64,000 nucleotides of DNA, from positions 3,557,501 to 3,621,500 of the forward strand of contig FP929003.1 in the NCBI GenBank assembly GCA_000196815.1, written 5' to 3'. Position 1 is the first letter of the stretch. The number at the start of each line of letters is the position of its first letter. Made by a program: the position numbers and the translations under genes. This stretch comes from Nitrospira defluvii (GTDB taxonomy: Bacteria > Nitrospirota > Nitrospiria > Nitrospirales > Nitrospiraceae). Below, in pieces: positions 5,523 through 24,361 of this stretch. A model generated the notes under the pieces. That model was not told the origin of the DNA. It saw only the letters and a list, made by a program, of their open reading frames with translations, and made no database searches.

Positions 5523-5610
5523 GTTATTCCCTTTCGGGGGTAGCACCCCCAGGTTAGCAGGAACGTACTATACGGCTGCCATCCGGGGGCCGTCAAGCCA
5601 AGTTCGCCTG

Positions 5611-5652
5611 ATTAGGCCTGAATCTCAATCAGTTAGGCCTGATAGGCCTACA
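5611..5652 (-). promoter_or_regulatory. Cluster of AGGCCT palindromes upstream of nuoF
   Basis: Three AGGCCT palindromes (5614-5619, 5635-5640, 5644-5649) lie within 36 bp, set in the repeated context TCAGGCCTAA/TAGGCCTAT when read toward nuoF. A further half copy (AATCAGGCG) is at about 5605-5613. The cluster sits 90-130 bp upstream of the nuoF start, where an operator could be. No regulator can be named from the sequence. Confidence 0.35.
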
Positions 5653-5710
5653 GCGAATCAGTCCAAAGACTCGCCGGCCTTCGATTACGGCACCCGGCAC
5701 CGATTGGCCC

Positions 5711-5753
5711 AAGAAAAAGGGGACTGATCACCCTAGTCGGATGACCAATCCCC
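5711..5753 (-). terminator. Rho-independent terminator after the PuuD-like membrane protein gene
   Basis: On the minus strand GGGGATTGGTCA pairs with TGATCAGTCCCC across an 11-nt loop. The 12-bp stem has two G-U pairs and is followed directly by TTTTTCTT. It lies 23 bp downstream of the membrane protein stop codon and before the nuoF promoter region. Confidence 0.85.
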
Positions 5754-5775
5754 GTGATTCTGCTCGCCCGACGGC

Positions 5776-6363
5776 TTACTTCAAATGGCTCCCTGCTCCC
5801 ATGAAGAACAACATGGGAATAGACAGCAAGAAGTTGATGCGTGATGCAATCAAGGCCGTTTTTCCCCACTGAGCCATCTCCGGCGGAGCGGGCGTACCTT
5901 GCGCAGCGGCAGCCACCGCCGCAATGACCTTCTTCTGATTGGGCCAAATAATCCCGTGCACATTCCCCATCATGATGATGCCAAGCAAACCGCCGATCCC
6001 CAGCGCAAGCGCCCCCGTTCCACCTTTTGAATAGAGGTAGCCGTACAGCACAATCCCCGCGAGGACAGTGACCGTGGCGCCATGGCGGAACCAATTCAGC
6101 GCAGCAGGCATGAGCTTGGGAATGACGATGTTCTTCGTCGGGCCATCCAGACTCTTGAGAAAGCCTGCATTGATAAGGTTAAAAAAGTACAACAGTCCGA
6201 TCCAGGTGATGCCGGCCAGGAAATGGACCCAGCGAACGATCAGACCGAACCAATCGGCTTCGCCCGCCCCCACCCCCGCCATACCCAGATATACGACTAT
6301 CAATCCGACAGCGAGCGCAAATCCTGCGCCCAATGTCTGATATGGATCCTCCAAGAATTTCAT
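5776..6363 (-). CDS. Urate-oxidase-N-terminal-like (PuuD-type) integral membrane protein
   Basis: A 195-aa membrane protein with about four to five transmembrane helices: residues about 10-30, 42-62, 96-115, 121-140 and a last one near 170-190. The motifs WVHFLAGITWIGLLYFFN and GNVHGIIWPNQKKVIAA recall the membrane part of PuuD-like urate hydroxylases (Urate_ox_N). The cytochrome c domain of true PuuD is absent. Conserved histidines inside helices suggest haem or metal binding (inference). A GGGGGG ribosome site precedes the ATG. It has its own terminator. Function is unknown; a respiratory or haem-linked role is a guess. Confidence 0.75.
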   Translation of the reverse strand: MKFLEDPYQTLGAGFALAVGLIVVYLGMAGVGAGEADWFGLIVRWVHFLAGITWIGLLYFFNLINAGFLKSLDGPTKNIVIPKLMPAALNWFRHGATVTVLAGIVLYGYLYSKGGTGALALGIGGLLGIIMMGNVHGIIWPNQKKVIAAVAAAAQGTPAPPEMAQWGKTALIASRINFLLSIPMLFFMGAGSHLK

Positions 6364-6466
6364 ACGCCCCCCAACTGTAACGGTTTACTGCCAACCACGT
6401 TCTCTACTGCAGGGCATTGAGCCTTGTCAAGCAACCTGCGTCCCATGCCCACCCGAAGTCGGCCGG

Positions 6467-7408
6467 TCACGCAGTCAGCAGGCGATCAACGACTGCACAT
6501 AAGTCCCGCACCGCATCCGCGGACGCCTGCAATGCGGTGCGCTCCTCAGCCGTCAGATCGTATTCGACGATGGATTCACCCCCGCTTCGTCCCAACGTCA
6601 CGGGCACGCCGACGATGACATCCTTCAGCCCGTATTCCCCCTCACACAGCATGGCACAGGGCACCACGCGCTTCTGGTCGTTCATGATCGCTTCGACCAT
6701 ATCCACCGCGGAGGCGGAGGGCGCATAAAATGCGCTGCCGGTCTTGAGCAGCCCAACGATTTCGGCCCCGCCGTCCTGCGTCCGCTTGATCAACGCTGCG
6801 AGCCGATCCGGAGCCAATCGATCCGTGATCGGCTTCCCGGTGACCGTCGTTTGCCGAACCAGCGGCACCATCGTATCCCCGTGCCCACCCAACACCATCG
6901 CCTGCACCTCTGTGCCCGGCACATTTAATTCTTCGGCTACGAACGACCGCAAGCGCGCCGTATCCAAGACACCCGCCATCCCGAGGACTCGTGACTTCGG
7001 CAGTCCGCTGACCTGTCGGGCCACATGCACCATGGCGTCCAGCGGATTCGTCACCAGAATAAGGATAATGTTCGGCGAACGCGACACCAGTTCCCGCACC
7101 ACTGTTTTTACAATTTTGGCGTTCGTCGCCAGGAGTTCATCCCGGCTCATCCCCGGTTTCCTGGGAATTCCCGACGTGATGACGGCAATGGAGGACCCGG
7201 CGGTCTCGTCATACCCATTGGTACCGACGACGCGGGTACTATACCCGCACACCGGCCCGGCCTGGGTGATATCCAAGGCCTTGCCCTGCGGGATGCCCGG
7301 CACAATGTCGACCAGCACCACATCGTACGCATTCTTCTCAGCCAGCCGCTGCGCAACCGTCCCGCCGACATTCCCCGCGCCCACTACCGTAATCTTTGGT
7401 CGTCCCAT
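6467..7408 (-). CDS. mdh: Malate dehydrogenase
   Basis: NAD-dependent malate dehydrogenase of the LDH-like (MDH type 3) family, oxidising malate to oxaloacetate in the TCA cycle (oxidative or reductive). The NAD site GAGNVGG is at 10-16 with Asp34 after the second strand, favouring NAD over NADP. The substrate loop has IPRKPGMSR (Arg83, Arg89), which marks MDH rather than LDH. Catalytic residues are Asp149 and Arg152 (VLDTARLR) and His176 (GGHGDTMVP). A GGAGG site lies 5 bases before the ATG at 7408; an in-frame ATG at 7465 is unlikely. The length of 313 aa is typical. Confidence 0.96.
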
Positions 7409-7493
7409 AAATTCCTCCGCAAGAATCCAACCGGGGAATGCCGAATGAGGAGGGCTTGCCGCCACTCCTTCTCCTCACCTCCCCATGTACCAT

Positions 7494-13386: not shown

Positions 13387-13704
13387 TCATTCCAGGTGGA
13401 GCTGTGCCCGCACCTGTTCTGCCGTTCGCCCCTTGACCAACACGCGTTTCTGGCGACTTCCCGCACCGCTCAGGATGTGGACCGCACTCAACGGCACCTC
13501 ACAACAACGGGCGAGAAACCGGCACAATTCGGCGTTCGCCGCGCCATCGGCCGGCGGCGCGGCGATGCGAATCTTCACCGCATGCCCATGCAGGCCCGCA
13601 CATTCACTGCGGGAGGCTTTCGGCTGAACATGAACTGAAATGGTCACGCCCTCGGATGTGGCGCGAACGGCCTGTTCGCGTTCAGTGGCCTGGGGCTCTC
13701 GCAT
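13387..13704 (-). CDS. yggU: DUF167 (YggU family) protein
   Basis: Small soluble protein of about 105 aa. The family core is seen as VHVQPKASRSE, KIRIAAPPADGAANAEL and SGAGSRQKRVLVKG. The function is unknown family-wide. The N-terminal extension before the core is uncertain; the frame is open to 13746 with only a GTG there. No good ribosome site is visible. It lies just downstream of the MoxR gene (65 bp) and may be co-transcribed. Confidence 0.8.
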   Translation of the reverse strand: MREPQATEREQAVRATSEGVTISVHVQPKASRSECAGLHGHAVKIRIAAPPADGAANAELCRFLARCCEVPLSAVHILSGAGSRQKRVLVKGRTAEQVRAQLHLE

Positions 13705-13768
13705 GGGGTGTGGTTGGTCGCCGAGCTCCTGCCGACACCGCCTCACTGCATCGCAGCGGGCGGATGCG

Positions 13769-14608
13769 TCAGAATATCGCCTTCACGACCTCGATGATGC
13801 TGCGCAACATGTCCGGATCGTCGGTGATAGGACGGGCAATGGCCACCTCACAGGCTTGATCGGCCGGCACACCTTGCCTGATCAATGTGGCCGCATAGAT
13901 CAGCAGTCTGGTGCTCACGCCCTCTTCCAGTCCGTGATTCTTGAGGTTTCGAACTTTTTCCGCAACCTTGACGAGACGCTGTGCAACCTCGAGGCTCACG
14001 CCGGCTTCGTGCGCCACCACCCGGCTCTCGACATCGGGCAGGGGGTAGTCGAACTCGATCGCCATGAACCGCTGCTTGGTGCTCTGCTTGAGATCTTTCA
14101 GAATACTTTGGTAGCCGGGGTTATATGAAATGACCAGCATGAAGTCATCGACCGCTTCAATGACCTGGCCCTTCTTCTCGATCGGCAGCAGGCGCCGATC
14201 GTCGCTCAAAGGATGGATAATGACGGTGGTGTCTTTCCTGGCCTCGACGATCTCGTCCAGGTAGACAATAGCCCCCTGCTTGACGCCGAGGGTCAACGGG
14301 CCGTCCATCCAGACCGTCTCCTGCCCCTTCAGCAGATACCGGCCGACGAGGTCGGAGGCCGTGAGATCTTCATGGCAGGCGACGGTAATGAGCGGGCGCC
14401 CCAGGCGATAGGCCATGTGCTGGACGAACCGCGTCTTGCCGCATCCCGTCGGCCCCTTCAACATCACCGGCATGCGACTCTGAGCTGCAATCGTGAACAG
14501 CCCGACCTCGCCCCGCACTTCGGCATAAAACGGCTCGCGCGCGATCCGATACCGGTCGATCTCCTGTTCCTGCCCTTTCGGCGCCGATACCGTTCGCCCT
14601 TCGCTCAT
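13769..14608 (-). CDS. MoxR-family AAA+ ATPase, CbbQ/NirQ/NorQ type
   Basis: A 279-aa AAA+ ATPase with Walker A GPTGCGKT at 52-59 and Walker B IVYLDEI at 114-120. The stretches [17 protein letters not shown] and SYNPGYQS are typical of the CbbQ/NirQ/NorQ/GvpN branch. These ATPases work with NorD/CbbO VWA proteins to activate Rubisco or nitric-oxide reductase or to insert metals. The ATG at 14608 has TAGGAG eight bases upstream. The partner VWA gene is at 7949-10984 on the same strand but three intervening genes break the usual adjacency. Confidence 0.92.
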
Positions 14609-14728
14609 TCCGACACTCCTACATTGAATTGAATAACCTGCATGGTGCGCCACGATAAACGGAAACGAGCGGGAAGTTCAAGCAGCCGGCTGAATACAGA
14701 GAGAGCCCCGCACCTTTGTGCGGTACGG

Positions 14729-17700
14729 TCAAGCGACTTTCGATCCATCGAGCACTTCTCGAACCTTCTGCGCCAGCGTCGTGGGCGTGAAGGGTTTCTG
14801 CAGGAAGGAATGCTCAGTATCGATCCCCCCCTTGGAAAAGGCCGGGTGATCCGGATAGCCCGACATGTACAGCACTTTGACCTCCGGACGAACCGTCGCG
14901 AGTTTTTCGGCGACTTCCGGCCCGCTCATCTGCGGCATGACCACGTCCGTCAGCAGCAAATGTATCGGACCGGCATGTTTGGCGCCGGTGAGCAACGCTT
15001 CAATCCCATGCCGGGCCTCGAGCACCGTATATCCATGCAAGCGCAGCGTTTCATTGACCAACCGCCGGACACCAGGCTCGTCCTCAACCAACAAGACCGT
15101 CTCGCGCCCTCTGACCGAGTCCCCTCCGACCGCGACGGATTCGGTCTCCGTTGCGGCCGACTCCACACGCGGAAAGTAAATCTTAAAGGTCGCCCCGCGT
15201 CCGGGCTTGCTCTCGACCTCGATACAGCCGCCACTTTGCTTGACGATGCCATAGACCGTCGAAAGACCGAGCCCCGTGCCCTTGCCCTTCTCTTTGGTTG
15301 TAAAAAACGGCTCGAAGACGTGCGACTGCGTATCCTCGTCCATGCCATGGCCGGTATCGCGCACGATCAACGCCACATAGGAACCGGGTTCGGCGCCCAT
15401 CGGCGGACGGTTCCTGCGTTGTCCGAACTGCACATTGCTGGTCTCCACCGTGAGGCGGCCACCGTTCGGCATGGCATCGCGGGCATTCACCGCAAGGTTC
15501 ATGATCACCTGCTCCACCTGACCGGGATCCGCCTTCAACTGTCCCAGCCCCGGATCCAGCACCGTGCAGAGCTCGACGATGTCCTCGCCCAGCAACCGTC
15601 GCAACATGCCTTCCATATTGTGGATCACCGAATTCAGATCCAGCACTTTCGGCGCAATGAATTGGCGGCGACTGAACGCCAACAGCTGTCCGGTGAGACC
15701 GGAGGCGCGATCCGCCGCCTTCTTCACTTCCTCCAGTTCCTTCCGGAATCCATCCGTGGGCGCCAGGCGGCTCAACACCAGTTCGCTGTAGCCACGAATC
15801 ACCGTCAGCATGTTGTTGAAGTCGTGCGCCACACCGCCGGCCAACCGTCCGACGGCTTCCATTTTTTGCGACTGCTGGAGCTGCGCTTCGGTGCGCCGCA
15901 ACGCATCCTCCGCCCGCGCGCGTTCGCCGAACTGGCCGATTTTCAGTCCGACGTCGGCCACCATCTTCAACAGCTGCTCGTCCGGCTGCTTGATCTCGCG
16001 CCGGAACAACTCGATCACACCCTCCACTTCGGTGCCGACCCGAACGGGAAATCCGAAGGCTCCGTGCAACCCCACTCTGGCGGCGGCACCACCGCGAGGG
16101 AAATTGGCCTCCTGCACCACGTCTTTGATCCAGGTCGGTTCACCGGCCTGCCAAATCCGTCCGGGGAGTCCCTTGCCGATCGTAAAGGTATGTTGCCAGG
16201 TGTCCAACACAAACTCTTCGGCGTTCAATGCGGGCGACTGCCAGACATCCAGACAACGCAGCACACTGCCCTGCCGATCGAGGCGCCAGAATATCCCCAA
16301 CTCCCATTCGAGACTTTCGCAGATGGCCTGCAGAATCTTCGGCCCCGCTTCTTCCAGCGTCCGCGATTCCGCCAAGACGCGCGTGACCGCGTACTGAGAC
16401 GCGAGTTGACGCTCGGTACGTTTTCGAGCCGTAATATCCCGGATGAACGCGCTGAAAATATAGGCATCGCCCAGCCGGGCGGGAGAAATGGTGATTTCGA
16501 CGGGAAACTCATGACCGTCGCGGTGAGATCCCATCATCTCAATCCGTCGATTGAGGAGTGCGCCCTGCCCGGTGTCCAGGAAATGGCGCAACCCGCGCTC
16601 ATGCGCCTCCCGATCGCGCACAGGAATCACCGTTTCGGACACGCGGCGGCCGAGCGCTTCCTCCCGCTCCCAGCCGAAAATATTGACCGCCTGCGCATTC
16701 CAATCCGTAATGATGCCGCCCGCATCCATAGAAATCACGGCGTCCAGCGCCGTATCGACGATAACCCGGTTGCGTTCCTGACTCTGCAGCAACGCGGCCT
16801 CCGCGGCACGCGCCCATTCACTTTCCTGCTGTGCCTGGCGATGCTGTTCACGCAATCGACCGGTGGCCCAGAGCAACAGTCCGACCATCGGAAGCCAGAC
16901 GACGACACCGGCCATGCCCAGTTTCCACATCATGGCTCGAATCGGCAGGAGAATGAGGTCCCGATCCATCCGCAGCAGGATCGTCCACTGCAACCCGGAA
17001 TAGTCGCCATACCCCTTGGTTTGGGAATAACCCGTGACGACCGGTACGCGACGGCGAGCATGCATTTCTTCGACGTATCCCGCCTTGCCGGACCGGCTCA
17101 ACAGCACCGAGGGCAACCCTAGTTCCGTGAGATTCACCCGATCGATGCCGGAAAAAGCCGAATCCACAAACACGACACCGGCTTTCGTCAGAAATTGATA
17201 CTCGAAGGGGCCGGCGGAGCCGTCGGTTTGTTGAATTTCACGGACCGTTTCAATGAGGACATCTTCCAACATCGGCAGCCCGATGCGAGTCGTCACGGCA
17301 CCGAGAAACTGGCCGCCGACACTCAGAATGGGGGCCGTAAAGGCCACCGACTCGATCTTATGATTCGATTCATGGATCTCGACTTCGTCTACCTGCACGG
17401 TTCCGGTCTGCCGCACCCGGTCGAACCAGCCGCTCCGGCTATAGTCCTGACCGATCACGGCGGAGTCCGTCGCCGCCACCATACGCCCATGGGCGTCCGT
17501 CACACCCAGCCAAAGATAGACCGGCGCATAGGTTTCCTTCATCCACTGCAGATATTCGTTGATGTATTTTTTATCGAGGGCGCGATCGGAAAAGGCCCGA
17601 GCCATCATACGAACATCCGCATGGCGTTCGAACAACAACCGATCGAGTTTGTCCGCAATTTCCGCGGAGGCCAGCGTGAGATTTTCTCCGGTCGCCTCGA

Positions 17701-17830
17701 CCATTCGCACTTCAATGGAGCGGAGCATCACCACACCGATCACAAGCGCCACAATGGTCACGCCGACGATCAGGACAGGTAACCAGGGATAGGACCGACG
17801 CGGGGAACCGGCAGGAAGGGAAACGGCCAT
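14729..17830 (-). CDS. Hybrid sensor histidine kinase: Cache-PAS-GAF-HisKA-HATPase-REC
   Basis: A 1033-aa membrane sensor. TM1 is at about 17-36 and TM2 at about 300-325, enclosing a double-Cache periplasmic domain. Then come PAS (about 350-465), GAF (about 480-640), HisKA with the phosphoacceptor in GGVAHDFNNM (about His668), HATPase with GTGLGLSTVYGIV, and a C-terminal receiver with Asp963 in LLLTDVVMP. The ATG at 17830 lies 2 bp after the stop of the upstream YkgJ-DUF2156 gene, so they are co-transcribed. The output partner is not visible. The receiver ends with a conserved YMSGYPDH segment and a KPF lysine. Confidence 0.93.
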   Translation of the reverse strand: MAVSLPAGSPRRSYPWLPVLIVGVTIVALVIGVVMLRSIEVRMVEATGENLTLASAEIADKLDRLLFERHADVRMMARAFSDRALDKKYINEYLQWMKETYAPVYLWLGVTDAHGRMVAATDSAVIGQDYSRSGWFDRVRQTGTVQVDEVEIHESNHKIESVAFTAPILSVGGQFLGAVTTRIGLPMLEDVLIETVREIQQTDGSAGPFEYQFLTKAGVVFVDSAFSGIDRVNLTELGLPSVLLSRSGKAGYVEEMHARRRVPVVTGYSQTKGYGDYSGLQWTILLRMDRDLILLPIRAMMWKLGMAGVVVWLPMVGLLLWATGRLREQHRQAQQESEWARAAEAALLQSQERNRVIVDTALDAVISMDAGGIITDWNAQAVNIFGWEREEALGRRVSETVIPVRDREAHERGLRHFLDTGQGALLNRRIEMMGSHRDGHEFPVEITISPARLGDAYIFSAFIRDITARKRTERQLASQYAVTRVLAESRTLEEAGPKILQAICESLEWELGIFWRLDRQGSVLRCLDVWQSPALNAEEFVLDTWQHTFTIGKGLPGRIWQAGEPTWIKDVVQEANFPRGGAAARVGLHGAFGFPVRVGTEVEGVIELFRREIKQPDEQLLKMVADVGLKIGQFGERARAEDALRRTEAQLQQSQKMEAVGRLAGGVAHDFNNMLTVIRGYSELVLSRLAPTDGFRKELEEVKKAADRASGLTGQLLAFSRRQFIAPKVLDLNSVIHNMEGMLRRLLGEDIVELCTVLDPGLGQLKADPGQVEQVIMNLAVNARDAMPNGGRLTVETSNVQFGQRRNRPPMGAEPGSYVALIVRDTGHGMDEDTQSHVFEPFFTTKEKGKGTGLGLSTVYGIVKQSGGCIEVESKPGRGATFKIYFPRVESAATETESVAVGGDSVRGRETVLLVEDEPGVRRLVNETLRLHGYTVLEARHGIEALLTGAKHAGPIHLLLTDVVMPQMSGPEVAEKLATVRPEVKVLYMSGYPDHPAFSKGGIDTEHSFLQKPFTPTTLAQKVREVLDGSKVA

Positions 17831-17832
17831 AC

Positions 17833-19350
17833 TCAGCACTCCGTCACTATGTAGTTGGGTAACAATCGTGCGGGATGATACCACTGCTTGGATCGCGCCA
17901 GACTCGGCAGGCCGGAATCATCCATCGTATTGATCCAACATGCCCCTTTCGCGCGAGCTTGGCGACAGAATTCACGAAACACAAACGGCCCGAGCCCCAC
18001 AATATCCCGATCGGCGATTTCCAGCAACACACAAAACACCGACGGGTTGAGCCACAGGCCCATCGTATAGGCCCGGATACGGCCCCCAACCCGAACCACT
18101 GCGCCGGTCAGCCCGAGTTCGGCTGTGTCAGACAATGCCGTCTCATGCGCGCCGGCGGCATCCGCCAACAGCGCAGAGGCCCAATCATCGGCACCGGCCC
18201 GCTGCTTCTGTTCCCGCCATTCATGAAACAAACTGACACAGGCTCGTTGGTCCCGGGGCTCATAGGGCTCAAGTATCCCGCCCCGTTCCCGGATAAATCG
18301 ATTGCACGCGGCCCGCGGGGATTTCAATGACTCGCCGGACAAGTCGGACAGAGCCGACGCCTCGTAGAGATAGTCGGGCTCTTTCGCAGTCGCACGGTAG
18401 CCCAGTGCGCGAACCTCATTGATACAGGCCTCCGGCACATTTTCGACCCGCGTGACCCGGGAATCGCCGTTCCGTTCACGCATGAAACGAAAGGCCTCGG
18501 CCAACGGCTGCGCAAGAGGCCCCGCCCCAAGCGGCGGCAGGGCCATGAACAGGCCATCGGGGCAGTCGGCGAACAAACAGAGATGGTCGTGAAGCACGGC
18601 CCAGGAATAGGTCACGCGATGCCGCCAGATGTAATGGTAGGCGAAGGACGCGGCGGCGAGCGGCGTTCCCTGAACACCGGCGCTGACGGCGAGCGCCGCT
18701 TCCATGCGTTCTCGATCCCCGAGCGTGAGGGCCTGCGTCCTCACCTGCATCCGCCCCTGCCGCAACCGTTCGGTCACGCGTTCAAGCGGCCGCAATACGA
18801 TCACGTCTTCCTGAAATCGCCCGATGAGCCTGGGATACCGCACGAGCGTCTCCACCCTGGCATCCTGCTCGATCCATCCGGCAACTTCGTCGGCAGCCTG
18901 TGCCACGAGCGGTGAAGACTGGTCCCTCATATACGGGCACTTCGTATCCCATCCCAACAGCACCTGCTCATGCATGGCATCCCACATCAAGGCAAACGGG
19001 TAGAGCCGGCAATCGAGGGGACGGGCCTCATAGATGCGACACTGCGAGGTTGCGCAATCGAAGGCCGGACAGACGTACCCCTCCCCATCCGGATTCGGAA
19101 CCAGGTCGATTTGTGAACCATCGGGGTGTGGAAACAGCGCAGGGGGAAGCCCGGCCGCAGTTGCGGTCCCGATTTCATCGGCGGTAAAGAAGGGCCGCAG
19201 GAAACTGTCTCGCTCCGGAAACCGGCAACAAACATCGCAACTGAGGCAGGCGGAACTCGGCACGATCTGCAGGAGAGGATCACCCCCGGGACGTGAAGCA
19301 TGTGTCGGGACAATTGGCACGAATGAACTCGTCATGAGCTGTGAGCGCAT
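17833..19350 (-). CDS. YkgJ-type cysteine-cluster domain fused to a DUF2156 (GNAT-like) domain
   Basis: A two-domain protein of about 505 aa. The N-terminal half is a zinc/iron-chelating YkgJ domain: CLSCDVCCRFPE (Cys35, 38, 41, 42) and CPAFDCATSQCRIYEARP. The C-terminal half (about 300-505) resembles DUF2156, the acyltransferase fold of lysyl-phosphatidylglycerol synthases, with FIRERGGILEPYEP and a closing INTMDDSGLPSLARSKQWYHP. No signal or TM is seen, so it is probably cytosolic. The start could also be the ATG at 19335; neither has a clear ribosome site. It is followed at once by a hybrid kinase. The pairing suggests metal- or membrane-lipid-linked signalling (inference). Confidence 0.8.
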   Translation of the reverse strand: MRSQLMTSSFVPIVPTHASRPGGDPLLQIVPSSACLSCDVCCRFPERDSFLRPFFTADEIGTATAAGLPPALFPHPDGSQIDLVPNPDGEGYVCPAFDCATSQCRIYEARPLDCRLYPFALMWDAMHEQVLLGWDTKCPYMRDQSSPLVAQAADEVAGWIEQDARVETLVRYPRLIGRFQEDVIVLRPLERVTERLRQGRMQVRTQALTLGDRERMEAALAVSAGVQGTPLAAASFAYHYIWRHRVTYSWAVLHDHLCLFADCPDGLFMALPPLGAGPLAQPLAEAFRFMRERNGDSRVTRVENVPEACINEVRALGYRATAKEPDYLYEASALSDLSGESLKSPRAACNRFIRERGGILEPYEPRDQRACVSLFHEWREQKQRAGADDWASALLADAAGAHETALSDTAELGLTGAVVRVGGRIRAYTMGLWLNPSVFCVLLEIADRDIVGLGPFVFREFCRQARAKGACWINTMDDSGLPSLARSKQWYHPARLLPNYIVTEC

Positions 19351-19485
19351 TGTAGCACTAACAGACTGAGCGGCCTACTAATCGGAACGTTTCACCCCCC
19401 GCGTGACCGAGCTCTCACGGGGCGGCAACGGATCGCTCCTCGAACAGCTCCGGCGTTCCGCTGACTTGTACCGGTATCAGAGGCC

Positions 19486-21078
19486 ATGGTACGATTTGCT
19501 CACCTCGAATCCAAACGCGAGTGCGAGGCATGCGACTGCGCTGCGAGTCTCGAGGATATTGCATTGGCACTGGCACAACATTCACGTGAGCCATTGAACT
19601 CCGACGAAGCCCGCCGACGTTGTCTCGCAATTCGTGATGCTCTCGTTCGCGCCGGGATCTACGGCCAGGCCGAAGCCGGCGACGGTGCGGCAACGACCGG
19701 CTCCTCAATTCAGTCGCCACGGTTCCGCCTGTCGCCAACGCCCTTTCCGCTCTCCTCCTCGGACGTCACGTTTTTTCAGCAACTGGGACAGGACCTCCTC
19801 TCCTTCTACAGGGCTCTCAACCGTCTGTATCAGGACAGCACCCGTGGAACTCAGCCCGCCTGGGTGGCGGCCTATCTCGACCAGGGCAAGCCGGAATCGC
19901 TGATCACCTTTAGCCGGATGAACCGTTTCCGCACCCTCATTCCCGGCATCATCCGACCCGACGTGATTCCAACCGCCGACGGCATGGTGATCACAGAGCT
20001 CGATTCGGTACCGGGCGGGATCGGCCTGACCGGTTGCCTGACTCGCGCCTATGATGATCAGTCCGCCATGGAACACCGGCCCCCCGGCCTGGCGCCTGAA
20101 CGCTCTCCCCTCATCGCAGGGCGTGACGGGATGTTGCAAGGCTTCGCCGCCATGCTGCGCGCCCAGCAAGGAGAGCAGGAAGGGTGCCTGGCGATTGTCG
20201 TCTCCGATGAGGCCAAGGAATACCGCGCGGAGATGGAATGGATGGCCCAACGATTGCGTGACATCGGGCACCAGGCCTACTGTGTTGAACCACGGGCGGT
20301 GCATTTCTCGGAAGAGGGCCTGTTTCTGCAGGAAGACACCGGACCACGGCCGATCGGCTTACTCTACCGCTTTTTCGAACTGTTCGACTTGAAGAACATC
20401 CCCAAGGCAGAACTCGTGATGTATGCCGCCAAGAAGGGGCATGTGACGGTCACGCCGCCCTACAAACCCGCGCTTGAAGAAAAGCTGGCGTTCGCACTGT
20501 TTCACCATCCGGAACTAACTCCGTTTTGGGACCAGGCATTACGTCCCGAAACCGCCGTCAACTTGCGACGATTGCTGCCGAGAACCTGGATCCTCGACCC
20601 GCAACCGGTACCTCCTTCCGCGGTCATCCCGCACCTCACGATCAGCGGCCGCGCGGTGTCGGACTTCCGGCGATTAGCCCAGACGACCCAAAAGGAACGC
20701 CAGTTGGTGCTCAAACCATCGGGATTTTCCGAACTGGCCTGGGGTAGCCGGGGCGTGTCCATCGGGCACGATCTGCCGCAGGTCGAGTGGGCCGCGGCAT
20801 TGGAGCAGGCGCTCCAGGCGTTCCCCGCGACGCCCTATGTCCTTCAGGAATTCCATAAGGGCCGCCTGTTCGAGTTGTCCTATCTCGACGAACGGAACGA
20901 CACGGTGGTCCCGATGTCCGGGAGAGTCCGCTTGTCTCCCTACTATTTCGTCGTCGGCGACAAAGCTGAACTCGGCGGGATTCTCGCGACCCTCTGCCCT
21001 GCCAACAAGAAAATCATCCACGGTATGGTCGACGCGATCATGGCGCCCTGTGCCATCGCGCAAGACCTCGCGTCATGA
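19486..21078 (+). CDS. ATP-grasp-like protein of unknown substrate
   Basis: A soluble 530-aa protein. Segments ITELDSVPGGIGLTG (residues about 169-183), KGHVTVTPP, and LVLKPSGFSELAWGSRGV with Lys410 resemble the nucleotide and Mg sites of permuted ATP-grasp ligases such as glutathionylspermidine synthase-like proteins. The C-terminus holds VLQEFHKGRLFELSYLDE and a PMSGRVRLSPYYFV strand. The N-terminal 60 residues contain several cysteines (CEACDCA). AGAGG lies 3 bases before the ATG. The next gene encodes a small glutaredoxin-like protein, a pairing that would suit thiol or peptide-ligand chemistry. Assignment to a ligase class is tentative. Confidence 0.65.
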   Translation: MVRFAHLESKRECEACDCAASLEDIALALAQHSREPLNSDEARRRCLAIRDALVRAGIYGQAEAGDGAATTGSSIQSPRFRLSPTPFPLSSSDVTFFQQLGQDLLSFYRALNRLYQDSTRGTQPAWVAAYLDQGKPESLITFSRMNRFRTLIPGIIRPDVIPTADGMVITELDSVPGGIGLTGCLTRAYDDQSAMEHRPPGLAPERSPLIAGRDGMLQGFAAMLRAQQGEQEGCLAIVVSDEAKEYRAEMEWMAQRLRDIGHQAYCVEPRAVHFSEEGLFLQEDTGPRPIGLLYRFFELFDLKNIPKAELVMYAAKKGHVTVTPPYKPALEEKLAFALFHHPELTPFWDQALRPETAVNLRRLLPRTWILDPQPVPPSAVIPHLTISGRAVSDFRRLAQTTQKERQLVLKPSGFSELAWGSRGVSIGHDLPQVEWAAALEQALQAFPATPYVLQEFHKGRLFELSYLDERNDTVVPMSGRVRLSPYYFVVGDKAELGGILATLCPANKKIIHGMVDAIMAPCAIAQDLAS

Positions 21079-21153
21079 GGGAACCTGATGATCGCTGCAG
21101 CAGAACCGGTTCATTGGCAGATGCCCACTCAACCTTTTGCCCCATAGGTACGC

Positions 21154-21399
21154 ATGGCTCTCACGCTCTATCATGTCCAATGGTGCCCGGATTGTGCGGT
21201 CGTTCGGGACCGCCTGGACGAACTGAACCTCTCCTACGAAGACGTGGTGGTTCCGGACTTTCGTCCGATGCGCACACAAGTCTTCGAAGTGTCGGGTCAA
21301 TACTATGTTCCTGTCTTGAAAGACGGAGACACGGTGCTGACGGAAACCCACGACATTCTTGCTCACCTGGACACACAATACGACAAGGCACGACCGTGA
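21154..21399 (+). CDS. Glutaredoxin / GST N-terminal-like thioredoxin-fold protein
   Basis: An 81-aa thioredoxin-fold protein with a CPDC dithiol at 11-14, a cis-proline segment YYVPVLKDGD, and TETHDILAHLD typical of GST N-terminal domains. It starts 75 bp downstream of the ATP-grasp-like gene on the same strand. The likely function is disulfide exchange or glutathione-dependent reduction. The partner is unknown. Confidence 0.85.
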   Translation: MALTLYHVQWCPDCAVVRDRLDELNLSYEDVVVPDFRPMRTQVFEVSGQYYVPVLKDGDTVLTETHDILAHLDTQYDKARP

Positions 21400-21568
21400 G
21401 GACTTTGCCCGGATCTGCAGCGCGAGCGCCGATCCCGGACCCGCCCCGATTTCACGGGGAGGCGCCGGCCCAGAGAGCTCGACCACTTAGCACGTTCTTG
21501 ACGAACAGTGGTCGTCCGTGTGCGGTTCAGGGCCGGCTGCGATCACGTATTTCCATACGCATCACCTG

Positions 21569-21646
21569 CAGGCTGTTGAAAAAGGCCGCCCAGCAAGGCC
21601 GCTGAGCGATGCGAGAGCGCCGCGGGCGGACTTTTTCAACAGCCTG
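21569..21646. repeat. Interspersed inverted repeat, copy 1 (short)
   Basis: 78 bp with arms 21569-21591 and 21624-21646. The outer 16 bp, CAGGCTGTTGAAAAAG, are perfectly inverted, then one mismatch and six more pairs. The loop holds AGCAAGGCC and GCGATGCGAGAGCGCCG, related to the longer copies. It ends 17 bp before the GTG of the kamA-like gene. It is a member of the family seen at 25979, 42865, 46804 and 51088. Confidence 0.85.
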
Positions 21647-21663
21647 TTAGAAAGGATAGAGAC

Positions 21664-22797
21664 GTGGAGGACTGGAGACGTATTCTGGCTCAGAGCGTGG
21701 TCAAGCCGAAGGATTTGGCGGATCGGCTCGGTGTCGACCCGAAAGAAATCGAGGACATCGTGGGGGACTACCCCATGCGGATTACGCCGACCGTGCTGGC
21801 CACCATCAAGGAGAAGGGCGATGCGATCTGGAAACAGGTCGTGCCCGATCGCGCGGAGATGGCCGATGCGGATGCGGAAGACGATCCGCTCGAAGAAGAT
21901 CTGATGAGCCCCGTGCCCCACTTGGTCCACCGGTACCCCGACCGCGTCCTCTTGATGGTCACGAATCAGTGTCCGATCTATTGCCGGTTTTGCACGCGCA
22001 AACGGCTGGTGGGCAAACCGGGCTTCCTCAAGAAAGGGGAACTCGACCGGGCCATCGCGTACCTGCGCGAACATCAGGAAGTGCGGGATGTGATTTTGTC
22101 CGGGGGCGACCCGCTCCTGCTCCCCGATCACCTGCTGGAACGGATCCTCAAATCCCTCCGGACCATTCCCCACTTGGAACTGATCCGCATCGGCACCCGC
22201 GTACCGGGCAGCCTGCCGGAGCGCATCACCCCGAAGCTCTGCGACATCATCAAGAAATATCATCCGTTTTATATGAACCTGCACTTCAACCATCCGGACG
22301 AGCTGACCCCGGAGGTGAAACGTGCCTGCGGGATGCTGGCCGATGCCGGGGTTCCCCTCGGTGCACAGACTGTGTTACTGAAGGGGGTCAACGACGACCC
22401 CGAGATCATGAAACGTCTGATGCATCAATTGTTGCTGGCACGCGTGAAGCCCTATTATCTGTATCAAGCCGACCTGACGAAGGGGACGAATCATTTCCGA
22501 ACGTCGGTGGAAACCGGCCTCAAGATCATCAAGTCGCTGCAGGGCCACACCAGCGGCATGGGCGTTCCCCACTTCGTGATCGATGCGCCCGGCGGCGGAG
22601 GCAAAATTCCACTGCTGCCCGCGGACTACCTGGTCAACCTGGATGAAGACAGCGCCGTGTTGAGAAATTACGAAAACCGGACCTTCCACTACCCCCAGCC
22701 CGGTTCCGCTCCAGGACGCGAACTGCCGATGGTCGGCGCCCATCCTTCCTGGGCCGCCACAGGCAACGGCTGCGACGGAGGGGGTGAACACCTGTGA
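21664..22797 (+). CDS. kamA: Lysine 2,3-aminomutase family radical SAM protein
   Basis: PLP- and AdoMet-dependent radical enzyme that moves an amino group from C2 to C3 (L-lysine to beta-lysine in KamA). The radical SAM cluster is CPIYCRFC (Cys103, 107, 110). The PLP lysine is in PGGGGK (Lys314). Asp270 in YQADLTKG and Asp307 in DAPGG correspond to the lysine-binding aspartates of characterised LAM, which supports a lysine substrate. The 377 aa are shorter than clostridial LAM, lacking its C-terminal zinc region. The GTG start has AAAGGA about 8 bases upstream. The stop overlaps the dcd-like GTG by 4 bp. A beta-lysine osmolyte or EF-P-related role is open. Confidence 0.88.
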   Translation: MEDWRRILAQSVVKPKDLADRLGVDPKEIEDIVGDYPMRITPTVLATIKEKGDAIWKQVVPDRAEMADADAEDDPLEEDLMSPVPHLVHRYPDRVLLMVTNQCPIYCRFCTRKRLVGKPGFLKKGELDRAIAYLREHQEVRDVILSGGDPLLLPDHLLERILKSLRTIPHLELIRIGTRVPGSLPERITPKLCDIIKKYHPFYMNLHFNHPDELTPEVKRACGMLADAGVPLGAQTVLLKGVNDDPEIMKRLMHQLLLARVKPYYLYQADLTKGTNHFRTSVETGLKIIKSLQGHTSGMGVPHFVIDAPGGGGKIPLLPADYLVNLDEDSAVLRNYENRTFHYPQPGSAPGRELPMVGAHPSWAATGNGCDGGGEHL

Positions 22798-23945
22798 CCC
22801 GTGCCGCTTCTTCAAAAGGGATCCTGCCGTACCAGCACATCACGCAGTTGATTGCCCGTAGATCCATCACCTCGGAGCATCCGATCGAGGACCGGCAAAT
22901 TCAACCGGCCAGCCTGGACTTACGGCTTGGAAAGAAAGCGTACCGGCTGATCAGCAGCTTCCTGCCGGAGTTGTCGGCGATCAGCAGCCGCCTCAATGTG
23001 CTCGACTTTTACCAGTCCGACCTCGTGATGTACGAGATGGACCTCACGCAGGGCGCCATACTCGAGAAGGGCCATGTGTATCTGGTCCCGCTCCTCGAAC
23101 AACTGGACCTGCCGGCCACGCTCCGCGCACGCGCTAATCCCAAAAGCACCACCGGGCGGCTGGATGTCTTCACCCGCGTCGTGACCGACTTGAATGCGGG
23201 GTTCGATGAAATCCGGGCCGGCTACCGGGGGCCGCTCTATCTGGAAGTGGTGCCGCGCTCTTTCGCCATCAAGGTACGCACGGGTGACTCCCTGAATCAG
23301 ATTCGTTTCGTGCGCGGCGATGCCACGGTCTCCGACAGTGCCCTGCAAAAGCTCCACGGGACCGATCCGCTGCTCTTTCATAATGCCTCGCCCCCGAAGG
23401 CGCTCCCTCAGAAGGAATTCCGCACAGATCGCGGCCTCTTCTTGCGGATCGACCTCACCGGAAGTGCGCGGGAAGACGCGGTCATCGGCTACCGGGCCAA
23501 GAAAAATAGCCATGTCATCGATCTGGCCAAAATCGGACATTACGCGGCTCTCGACTTCTGGGAACCCCTGAAACGGCACCGGCAGGACAGTCTCCTCCTG
23601 GAACCGGAGGAGTTTTATATCCTGGCGTCCAAAGAGCGCATTCGGGTGCCGCCGGGTTATGCCGCGGAGATGGTCGCCTACGAAGCGGCCTGCGGCGAAC
23701 TGCGCACCCACTATGCCGGCTTCTTCGACCCGGGGTTCGGGTATGGAGACGGCAAGATGCGGGGCACTCAGGTCGTCCTGGAAGTCCGCCCGCACGATGT
23801 CCCGTTCCTCATTCATGACGGGCAAACCTTCTTCAAAGTAGTGTATGATCGGATGCTCACGGTGCCGACACAGGTATACGGGACGGCGCTCGGCTCGTCA
23901 TACCAACGGCAAGCCCTCACCCTCAGCAAGCACTTTAAGGCCTAA
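22794..23945 (+). CDS. dcd: dCTP deaminase family protein, two-domain form
   Basis: A 383-aa protein of the 2'-deoxycytidine 5'-triphosphate deaminase/dUTPase family. The first half has IQPASLDLRLG, RARANPKSTTGRLDVFTRVVTD and GYRGPLYLEVVP. The second half repeats the fold with EFYILASKERIRVPPGYAAEM, HYAGFFDPGFG and FLIHDGQTFFKVVYDRM. Single-domain Dcd is about 190 aa, so this is the duplicated form found in some alpha-proteobacteria and others. The GTG start overlaps the kamA stop (GTGA). It would provide dUTP for thymidylate synthesis. Confidence 0.88.
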   Translation: MTRAASSKGILPYQHITQLIARRSITSEHPIEDRQIQPASLDLRLGKKAYRLISSFLPELSAISSRLNVLDFYQSDLVMYEMDLTQGAILEKGHVYLVPLLEQLDLPATLRARANPKSTTGRLDVFTRVVTDLNAGFDEIRAGYRGPLYLEVVPRSFAIKVRTGDSLNQIRFVRGDATVSDSALQKLHGTDPLLFHNASPPKALPQKEFRTDRGLFLRIDLTGSAREDAVIGYRAKKNSHVIDLAKIGHYAALDFWEPLKRHRQDSLLLEPEEFYILASKERIRVPPGYAAEMVAYEAACGELRTHYAGFFDPGFGYGDGKMRGTQVVLEVRPHDVPFLIHDGQTFFKVVYDRMLTVPTQVYGTALGSSYQRQALTLSKHFKA

Positions 23946-23947
23946 AC

Positions 23948-24361
23948 ATGGCACCACCCAGCGACCTTCCAGATCCCTCGACCCGTCCGTCCAGACCCTC
24001 CTCGAACCAGGAGGGCCCCGAAGAAGACAGCGGCTCGGACCGCCAGGCGCATGTCGCCGGGATGATGGTCGGCACAGCCTTGATGTTCATCGGCTTTCTC
24101 GACGTGTTCCTCTCCATCAGCGGAGGGTTCGAAATCAACGTGGTGCCGCTGCTGATCTACTTCAGCGGCATCGCCGTCTGGGCCAATGCCGTGGTCGAAA
24201 ATCCGACGATTCGTTACTCCCTGATGGCCGGATCCGTCCTGATCAGTCTGGCATTTTTCCACTATGGCGAGGTGCTGTTCTGGCACAAGCAGGTGGTGTT
24301 CTGGTCCACCGTCGTCGTCGTGATGTATTTCATGTTCAACGAGCCGAAACAGGCGACCTGA
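23948..24361 (+). CDS. Small membrane protein of unknown function
   Basis: 137 aa with a 35-residue Pro/Ser/acidic N-terminal cytoplasmic segment and four hydrophobic helices: about 38-55, 62-82, 92-112 and 116-132. It starts 2 bp after the dcd stop, so it belongs to the kamA-dcd transcript. No known motif is seen. A role linked to nucleotide metabolism cannot be inferred from the sequence. Confidence 0.7.
   Translation: MAPPSDLPDPSTRPSRPSSNQEGPEEDSGSDRQAHVAGMMVGTALMFIGFLDVFLSISGGFEINVVPLLIYFSGIAVWANAVVENPTIRYSLMAGSVLISLAFFHYGEVLFWHKQVVFWSTVVVVMYFMFNEPKQAT

Follow-up and report, generated by a model that had tools for sequence, protein, structure and literature searches.

The transferase family PF09924 (LPG_synthase_C, formerly DUF2156) was named by Pfam after lysyl-phosphatidylglycerol synthase. 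The accessible text of PMC11630815 names two residues of this domain in MprF, S684 and R742 (Pfam positions 152 and 212), as having experimental relevance to the production of aminoacyl-PG. The accessible part of PMC9379638 places VlmA, an enzyme that uses seryl-tRNA, in PF09924, and that of PMC12945691 gives Lys305 as the catalytic lysine of FemX. Among proteins with cysteine clusters, FliB has eight conserved cysteines and an N-terminal CX4CX3CC motif that binds [4Fe-4S], again according to the accessible text of the report (PMC8598068).

The window (the whole 64,000-nucleotide stretch of Nitrospira defluvii DNA that was analyzed) contains an ORF in which a domain of each kind is present. 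Pfam scanning of this fusion ORF (17833–19350, minus strand; 505 aa as first called) identified PF03692 (CxxCxxCC, YkgJ-type) at residues 34–120, with 31.1 bits against a gathering cut-off of 23, in a part that we extended to C138 (18937–19251, minus strand). The scan also identified PF09924, a tandem-GNAT transferase domain, at residues 234–502 (17845–18651, minus strand), with 98.7 bits against a gathering cut-off of 27.5. The first-pass annotation had described a cysteine domain fused to an acyltransferase-like fold, with a kinase gene starting 2 bp beyond it, and both statements were confirmed, the TGA of the fusion being followed by GT and then by the ATG of the kinase gene. In many relatives the two genes have a 4-bp overlap instead of this gap.

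The fusion ORF was the sole PF09924 match in its own genome, in which PF03692 also matched two further ORFs, one of 290 aa and one of 209 aa. A match uninterrupted by stops was found in 29 of the 29 genomes of its own genus code (own genome included), and the fusion protein was present in 47 of the 61 genomes compared (again including its own); the fusion is therefore no chance ORF. In G010 the match was divided between two contigs. Translation probably begins at the second ATG (position 19335), giving 500 aa, because a 1-base deletion between the two ATGs in G015 throws the first out of frame, and also because TGCTACAAT (19349–19357, minus strand), an invariant sequence resembling an extended -10 element, overlaps the first ATG. 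Comparison of near genomes placed this sequence inside a 16-base stretch that was invariant in all six of them, and its position suggests a very short leader before the second ATG. A consensus scan of positions 17700–19550 found no sigma-70-type promoters or terminators, and no RNA families were matched at gathering scores within 13700–24000.

Linkage of the YkgJ and DUF2156 halves

Whole-genome searches covering the window's own phylum, Nitrospirota, and a contig search together gave 144 loci at the start, 11 of which (L037, L038, L046, L047, L049, L173, L175, L176, L177, L183, and L186) were left out of the pairing count for an absent or too short DUF2156 match. Some genomes were present twice, under a G handle and as a named contig, and the counts are therefore of loci and not of independent species; family codes exist for G-handle loci only, and the named contigs were placed in the Nitrospira-type group by similarity. 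YkgJ and DUF2156 were fused (107 loci) or adjacent on the same strand (17 loci) in 124 of the 133 DUF2156 loci, and 11 family codes are represented among the paired or fused loci (f1, f2, f3, f5, f6, f9, f10, f12, f18, f20, and f21). One of the nine loci without YkgJ, L189, lies at a contig edge. The other eight (f15, f17, f19, and f33) have a related but diverged DUF2156 and fall on one side of a supported branch.

In the split loci, seen in several order-level relatives, the gene order was YkgJ then DUF2156, and both states occur inside a single genus code (g14). A tree of 76 representatives, quickly built and with five long branches, required at least six changes between the fused and split states, which indicated that the two states had repeatedly turned into each other; branches with support of 95 or more force three changes for the split state and two for the fused one. 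Outside Nitrospirales, the other neighbors of the pair largely differ between families. Together, the linkage of the pair, the differing neighbors and the repeated changes between fused and split states provide strong evidence of joint function. The linkage shows that the two halves belong together, and it is as a YkgJ-DUF2156 pair that they are conserved.

The best 80 of 158 hits in a contig search for relatives were titled Nitrospira, Nitrospiraceae, Nitrospirae or Nitrospirota, with one Nitrosospira. No viral relatives were confirmed, and in the plasmid collection four records matched the DUF2156 part only, at 23–30% identity. In L047 (G044, f3), the DUF2156 gene has several in-frame stops and the YkgJ match has none, which may represent decay or an assembly error. 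The pair is real and deeply conserved, and it unites known domain families in an arrangement for which we found no description: no title or abstract opening describing it was found in a literature search that reached a minority of the subscription journals.

The explanation that we favor, tentatively, is a two-part modifying enzyme in which a tandem-GNAT aminoacyl/acyl transferase has a dedicated metal-binding cysteine domain and to which sensors were added later. The PF09924 half would transfer an aminoacyl group, or an acyl group like it, with aminoacyl-tRNA as the probable donor, as in FemX, VlmA, and MprF, and its acceptor would be a non-lipid molecule. The eight-cysteine domain would bind a metal center, most likely [4Fe-4S] by analogy with FliB, and may either make the transferase redox-dependent or act on the same substrate. 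The Nitrospira kinase and, in a different family, a Cache-HAMP-GAF sensor would have joined the pair later. As these sensor genes lie beside the pair, enzyme and sensor would probably be made together, an expectation in which the adjacency was observed and co-transcription and regulation are inferred from it.

Fold and residues of the transferase half

The AlphaFold2 model of the fusion had a mean pLDDT of 78.8, and the fold comparison covered residues 201–505. The closest structure by far was 2hqy, a stand-alone protein (residues 202–505 of the model; Z 32.8, rmsd 2.3, 290 aligned), followed by L-PGS/A-PGS/MprF chains (Z 17.5–19.5), FemX 6snr (Z 16.9, rmsd 4.5, 273 aligned), and Sba18/Sbb17 (Z 16.2–16.4; 9wqy, Z 16.4). 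Weissella FemX (Z 14.7–15.0) and mycothiol synthase (Z 14.3) were in the same fold list. The match to FemX identified a tandem GNAT fold. With the family profile searched against the PDB, 2hqy was matched at 6.3e-64 and 4v36 at 9e-4.

The first-pass annotation had raised a lipid-modifying enzyme and the retention of donor and acceptor residues in DUF2156. In a MAFFT alignment with five MprF rows, taken from the nine MprF-type loci of the phylum, the fusion has F375 at MprF S684 and E444 at MprF R742. Across the 34 family rows, which comprise YkgJ-partnered and diverged stand-alone DUF2156 proteins, the arginine column holds E in 31 and A in three, never R, and the serine column holds F in 17, Y in six, L in four and other residues in seven (S once). 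The MprF-type matches in the phylum scored 314.6–352.4 bits, and in all seven of the nine that were translated the DLMR arginine lies near position 212. MprF-like lipid aminoacylation was therefore not supported by these replacements, and the two MprF residues were not retained. What was retained is an invariant lysine, K488, found in 34 of 34 family rows and five of five MprF rows. This residue lies 17 residues from the aligned C-terminus, compared with 18 for FemX Lys305, as measured from fold-match ranges, and based on these similar chain-end distances K488 may correspond to Lys305.

Three genomes (G219, G076, and G100) each carry an MprF-type match as well as a YkgJ-DUF2156 pair, so the roles of the two probably differ. 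The proteins studied here are clearly set apart as a subfamily by the missing MprF amino-acid residues and by a dedicated cysteine-cluster partner, and the family name derived from lysyl-phosphatidylglycerol synthase is thus probably wrong for them.

With both residues of the MprF amino-acid site replaced, the donor may not be aminoacyl-tRNA. A somewhat unlikely alternative is that the DUF2156 half works as a 2hqy-type N-acyltransferase that depends on acyl-CoA; the YkgJ half would then be a zinc domain with a structural role, and tRNA would not be involved. This would agree with the loss of the MprF residues, with the stand-alone 2hqy being by far the nearest structure, with the matches to tandem acetyl-CoA GNATs such as mycothiol synthase, and with a GNAT-like glycine loop, DRDIVGLG, at residues 447–454, in which D447, R448, and G452 are invariant in 11 rows. 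However, MprF, Staphylococcus aureus FemX, and Sba18/Sbb17 outrank the acetyl-CoA tandem GNATs in the fold list (Weissella FemX and mycothiol synthase being tied), and the invariant K488 is shared with MprF.

Sensor genes beside the pair

The gene downstream of the fusion (14729–17830, minus strand) encodes a lineage-specific neighbor, a hybrid histidine kinase of 1033 aa. It has, in order, a hydrophobic segment, a weak dCache_1 match (28.4 bits against a cut-off of 45), a second hydrophobic segment, PAS, GAF, HisKA, HATPase_c and receiver domains. The HisKA (38.8 bits), HATPase_c (79.2 bits) and receiver (62.3 bits) matches were all over cut-off, as expected of a hybrid histidine kinase, and motif reading gave H669 and D962 as its putative phosphate sites. 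The HisKA-HATPase-receiver order is that of CckA-like hybrid histidine kinases; unlike CckA, the window kinase adds Cache-like and GAF domains, and its 415.3 bits fell far below the CckA NCBIfam equivalog cut-off of 1000. The N-terminal sensor part was unrecognizable in 23 of the 101 kinase rows, yet the place beside the fusion was kept; most of these 23 kinases are shorter (about 770–780 aa) and still have at least two predicted membrane segments. Several loci in the range L132–L156 have an adjoining kinase of about 770–780 aa in total, with a different, shorter N-terminal part but in the same place. Further downstream in Nitrospirales loci is a gene for a CbbQ/NorQ-type AAA+ protein (13769–14653, minus strand, in the window).

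Based on a rule that required a core within 3200 nt on the same strand, a kinase lay downstream and co-directional in 93 of the 123 loci with at least 3 kb of room; the rule missed L032/L099, in which a kinase lies about 1.5 kb downstream. These 93 were found among the 100 loci of the Nitrospira-type group. None was found among the 23 loci outside it (five in f2, three in f3, and 15 in other families), of which 18 have YkgJ, three lack it (L169, L170, and L185), and two are cut by a contig edge (L049 and L189). The absence from all 23 ruled out the kinase as a general partner of the pair, and the kinase link is real but local. The association with a two-component sensor put forward in the first-pass annotation therefore held in the Nitrospira-type group and failed as a general rule. 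The opposite case, which it had said would count against the association, a fusion that is common with no sensor partner, largely describes the loci outside the group, save for another sensor in f20. Kinase homologues do occur somewhere in the fetched regions of six family codes besides the Nitrospira-type group's own, and in L034 (f2) a convergent kinase-like gene, with a core 61% identical to that of the window kinase, lies near a fused pair.

In f20, a dCache_1-HAMP-GAF sensor without a kinase is encoded directly upstream of the YkgJ gene of the split pair in all five fetched loci with room (L165, at 5605–7416, L166, L167, L168, and L187). This sensor, of 603 aa, has dCache_1 (69.1 bits), HAMP and GAF_2 domains and no kinase or other output domain, and in L165 the sensor and YkgJ frames overlap. 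Its similarity to the window kinase is weak, with 19% identity for the GAF part (E 2e-4, from one comparison) and E 0.002 for the Cache part. In f21, an HflX-type GTPase gene is directly upstream of the split pair in seven of seven fetched loci with room (L172, L173, L174, L175, L176, L178, and L179, two of the seven having been Pfam-scanned). M16 peptidase neighbors of the pair were also observed in f9 and f21.

A sensor neighbor was thus present in two of the 11 family codes. Counted roughly and with no formal test, the window's own genome has 67 HATPase_c and five dCache_1 matches, and two f20 genomes have 11 and seven dCache_1 matches; with 67 HATPase_c matches, one sensor neighbor is unremarkable. 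The two Cache-type sensor neighbors are suggestive and are not proof of a sensor link for the pair; the sensor link that exists is lineage-specific. That the two neighbors are different sensors suggests a reaction that responds to some cue from the environment in Nitrospira and related lineages. We consider it unlikely that the pair is, phylum-wide, a sensor-gated enzyme in which an Fe-S domain and a tandem-GNAT aminoacyl-transferase would work as one redox-dependent unit on a new acceptor, with lineages plugging in a hybrid kinase, a kinase-less Cache-GAF receptor or HflX.

Quite unlikely, in our judgment, is the model of the first-pass annotation, in which fusion and kinase form a single sensory module: the signal would come from the metal domain of the fusion and be passed on by the co-translated hybrid kinase. 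Such a module would account for the small gap or 4-bp overlap kept throughout the genus, the kinase adjacent in 93 of the 100 Nitrospira-type loci with room, the convergent gene in L034, and the second, different sensor in each of the five f20 loci. It is at odds with the 23 outside loci that have no downstream co-directional kinase, and with the kinase owning a sensor part, which is unrecognizable in the 23 rows mentioned although adjacency is kept; moreover, with so many HATPase_c matches in the genome a chance kinase neighbor is not rare. Because YkgJ and DUF2156 are rarely separated, whereas the presence of the kinase varies, the metal domain is more likely to act for the transferase half than for the kinase.

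The cysteine half, the divergent module and known systems

The eight cysteines of the YkgJ half (C35, C38, C41, C42, C94, C104, C114, and C138) were invariant in 17 of 17 aligned rows, an alignment that includes L177, which has no DUF2156 beside its YkgJ. YkgJ-type proteins without DUF2156 also exist in L186 and in the two further ORFs of the window's own genome. The motif at residues 35–42 is CX2CX2CC and not the CX4CX3CC of FliB, and over this stretch the predicted model was weak (pLDDT under 50 at residues 31–43). No PDB sequence matched the YkgJ half at E values up to 1, and at the same limit the N-terminal part matched no family besides PF03692; the MprF flippase membrane domain was not found in it. 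This cysteine-rich domain probably holds iron-sulfur or zinc.

Judged by motif and cysteine count, FliB would be the nearest characterized comparison for this half. It is very unlikely that the YkgJ half is itself a FliB-like SAM-dependent methyltransferase, with DUF2156 as a second modifier of the same lysine or amine: the eight invariant cysteines recall those in the accessible description of FliB (PMC8598068), but their spacing is CX2CX2CC, the half has only about 195 aa, and no SAM-binding family was matched in the fusion.

Across 135 bp, the fusion faces a divergent cluster on the plus strand that encodes a ligase-like protein (19486–21078; 530 aa), a glutaredoxin-like protein (21154–21399), and a KamA-family radical SAM protein resembling lysine 2,3-aminomutase (21664–22797). 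The ligase-like protein had no Pfam or NCBIfam match over cut-off, and its model (pLDDT 80.8) folds like eukaryotic glutathione synthetase and the glutathionylspermidine synthetase proteins GspS/YgiC/YjfC (Foldseek 2.1e-15; Z 24.9, rmsd 4.2, 411 aligned). The ligase was present in 123 of 245 genomes sampled from Nitrospirota. Of the 20 fetched regions, 17 had KamA next to the ligase, the exceptions being the two f13 regions and f28, and a glutaredoxin match lay between the two in eight of the 17. The phylum-wide conservation of ligase and KamA indicates a module independent of the YkgJ-DUF2156 pair; in Nitrospirales the two modules are head to head.

The KamA protein passed the KamA-family cut-off (298 against 199.2 bits) and missed that of the lysine 2,3-aminomutase equivalog (428.8 against 525.4). 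Its sequence suggests lysine rather than glutamate as substrate, because it keeps both aspartates aligned with D293 and D330 of 2a5h, which we take to bind the lysine side chain. EpmA and AblB are the usual users of beta-lysine. EF-P beta-lysylation and N-acetyl-beta-lysine were rejected as uses of the aminomutase, as the window's own genome had no match to AblB and none over cut-off to EpmA (genX), for which the best match, a 517-aa frame that is probably lysyl-tRNA synthetase, scored 264.4 bits where 286.9 are required. The ligase and KamA may act in a pathway whose product is a beta-lysine-containing compound or thiol. Cooperation of the pair with this cluster, for example by transferring beta-lysine, seems highly improbable, for although the two are placed head to head in Nitrospirales (f1–f3) and both occur in genomes of f1, f3, f5, f6, f9, f10, f12, f20, and f21, they are unlinked in the loci fetched outside Nitrospirales, the ligase occurs without a detected pair in f7, f8, f11, f13 and genus g11 of f3, and in f18 it is the ligase that is missing beside a pair that is present.

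In the two-part modifying enzyme, we read the transferase half as resembling aminoacyl-transferases and the other half as its dedicated partner, probably an Fe-S one. The close pairing of the two halves provides a testable handle on the function of YkgJ-type domains.

The Bacteroides thetaiotaomicron protein of 2hqy, a stand-alone DUF2156, has the same fold over the whole transferase domain at 26% identity, and also has E at the MprF arginine position, but its chain has no YkgJ part and the structure is titled "unknown function". The C-terminal domain of MprF/aminoacyl-phosphatidylglycerol synthase (4v36, 4v34) is of the same Pfam family and shares the invariant lysine; unlike MprF, the fusion has no flippase, has both S684 and R742 replaced, and carries an N-terminal cysteine domain instead. 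The aminoacyl-tRNA-dependent transferases FemABX, VlmA, and Sba18 have the tandem GNAT fold in common with it, whereas they belong to other gene clusters and, in the accessible text on them, go without mention of a YkgJ partner. FliB, finally, is a flagellin lysine methyltransferase with eight conserved cysteines, whose N-terminal cysteine cluster was likened to PF03692 by its authors, but it differs from the YkgJ half in its CX4CX3CC spacing, in having flagellin as target, and in the accessible text mentioning no transferase partner (PMC8598068).
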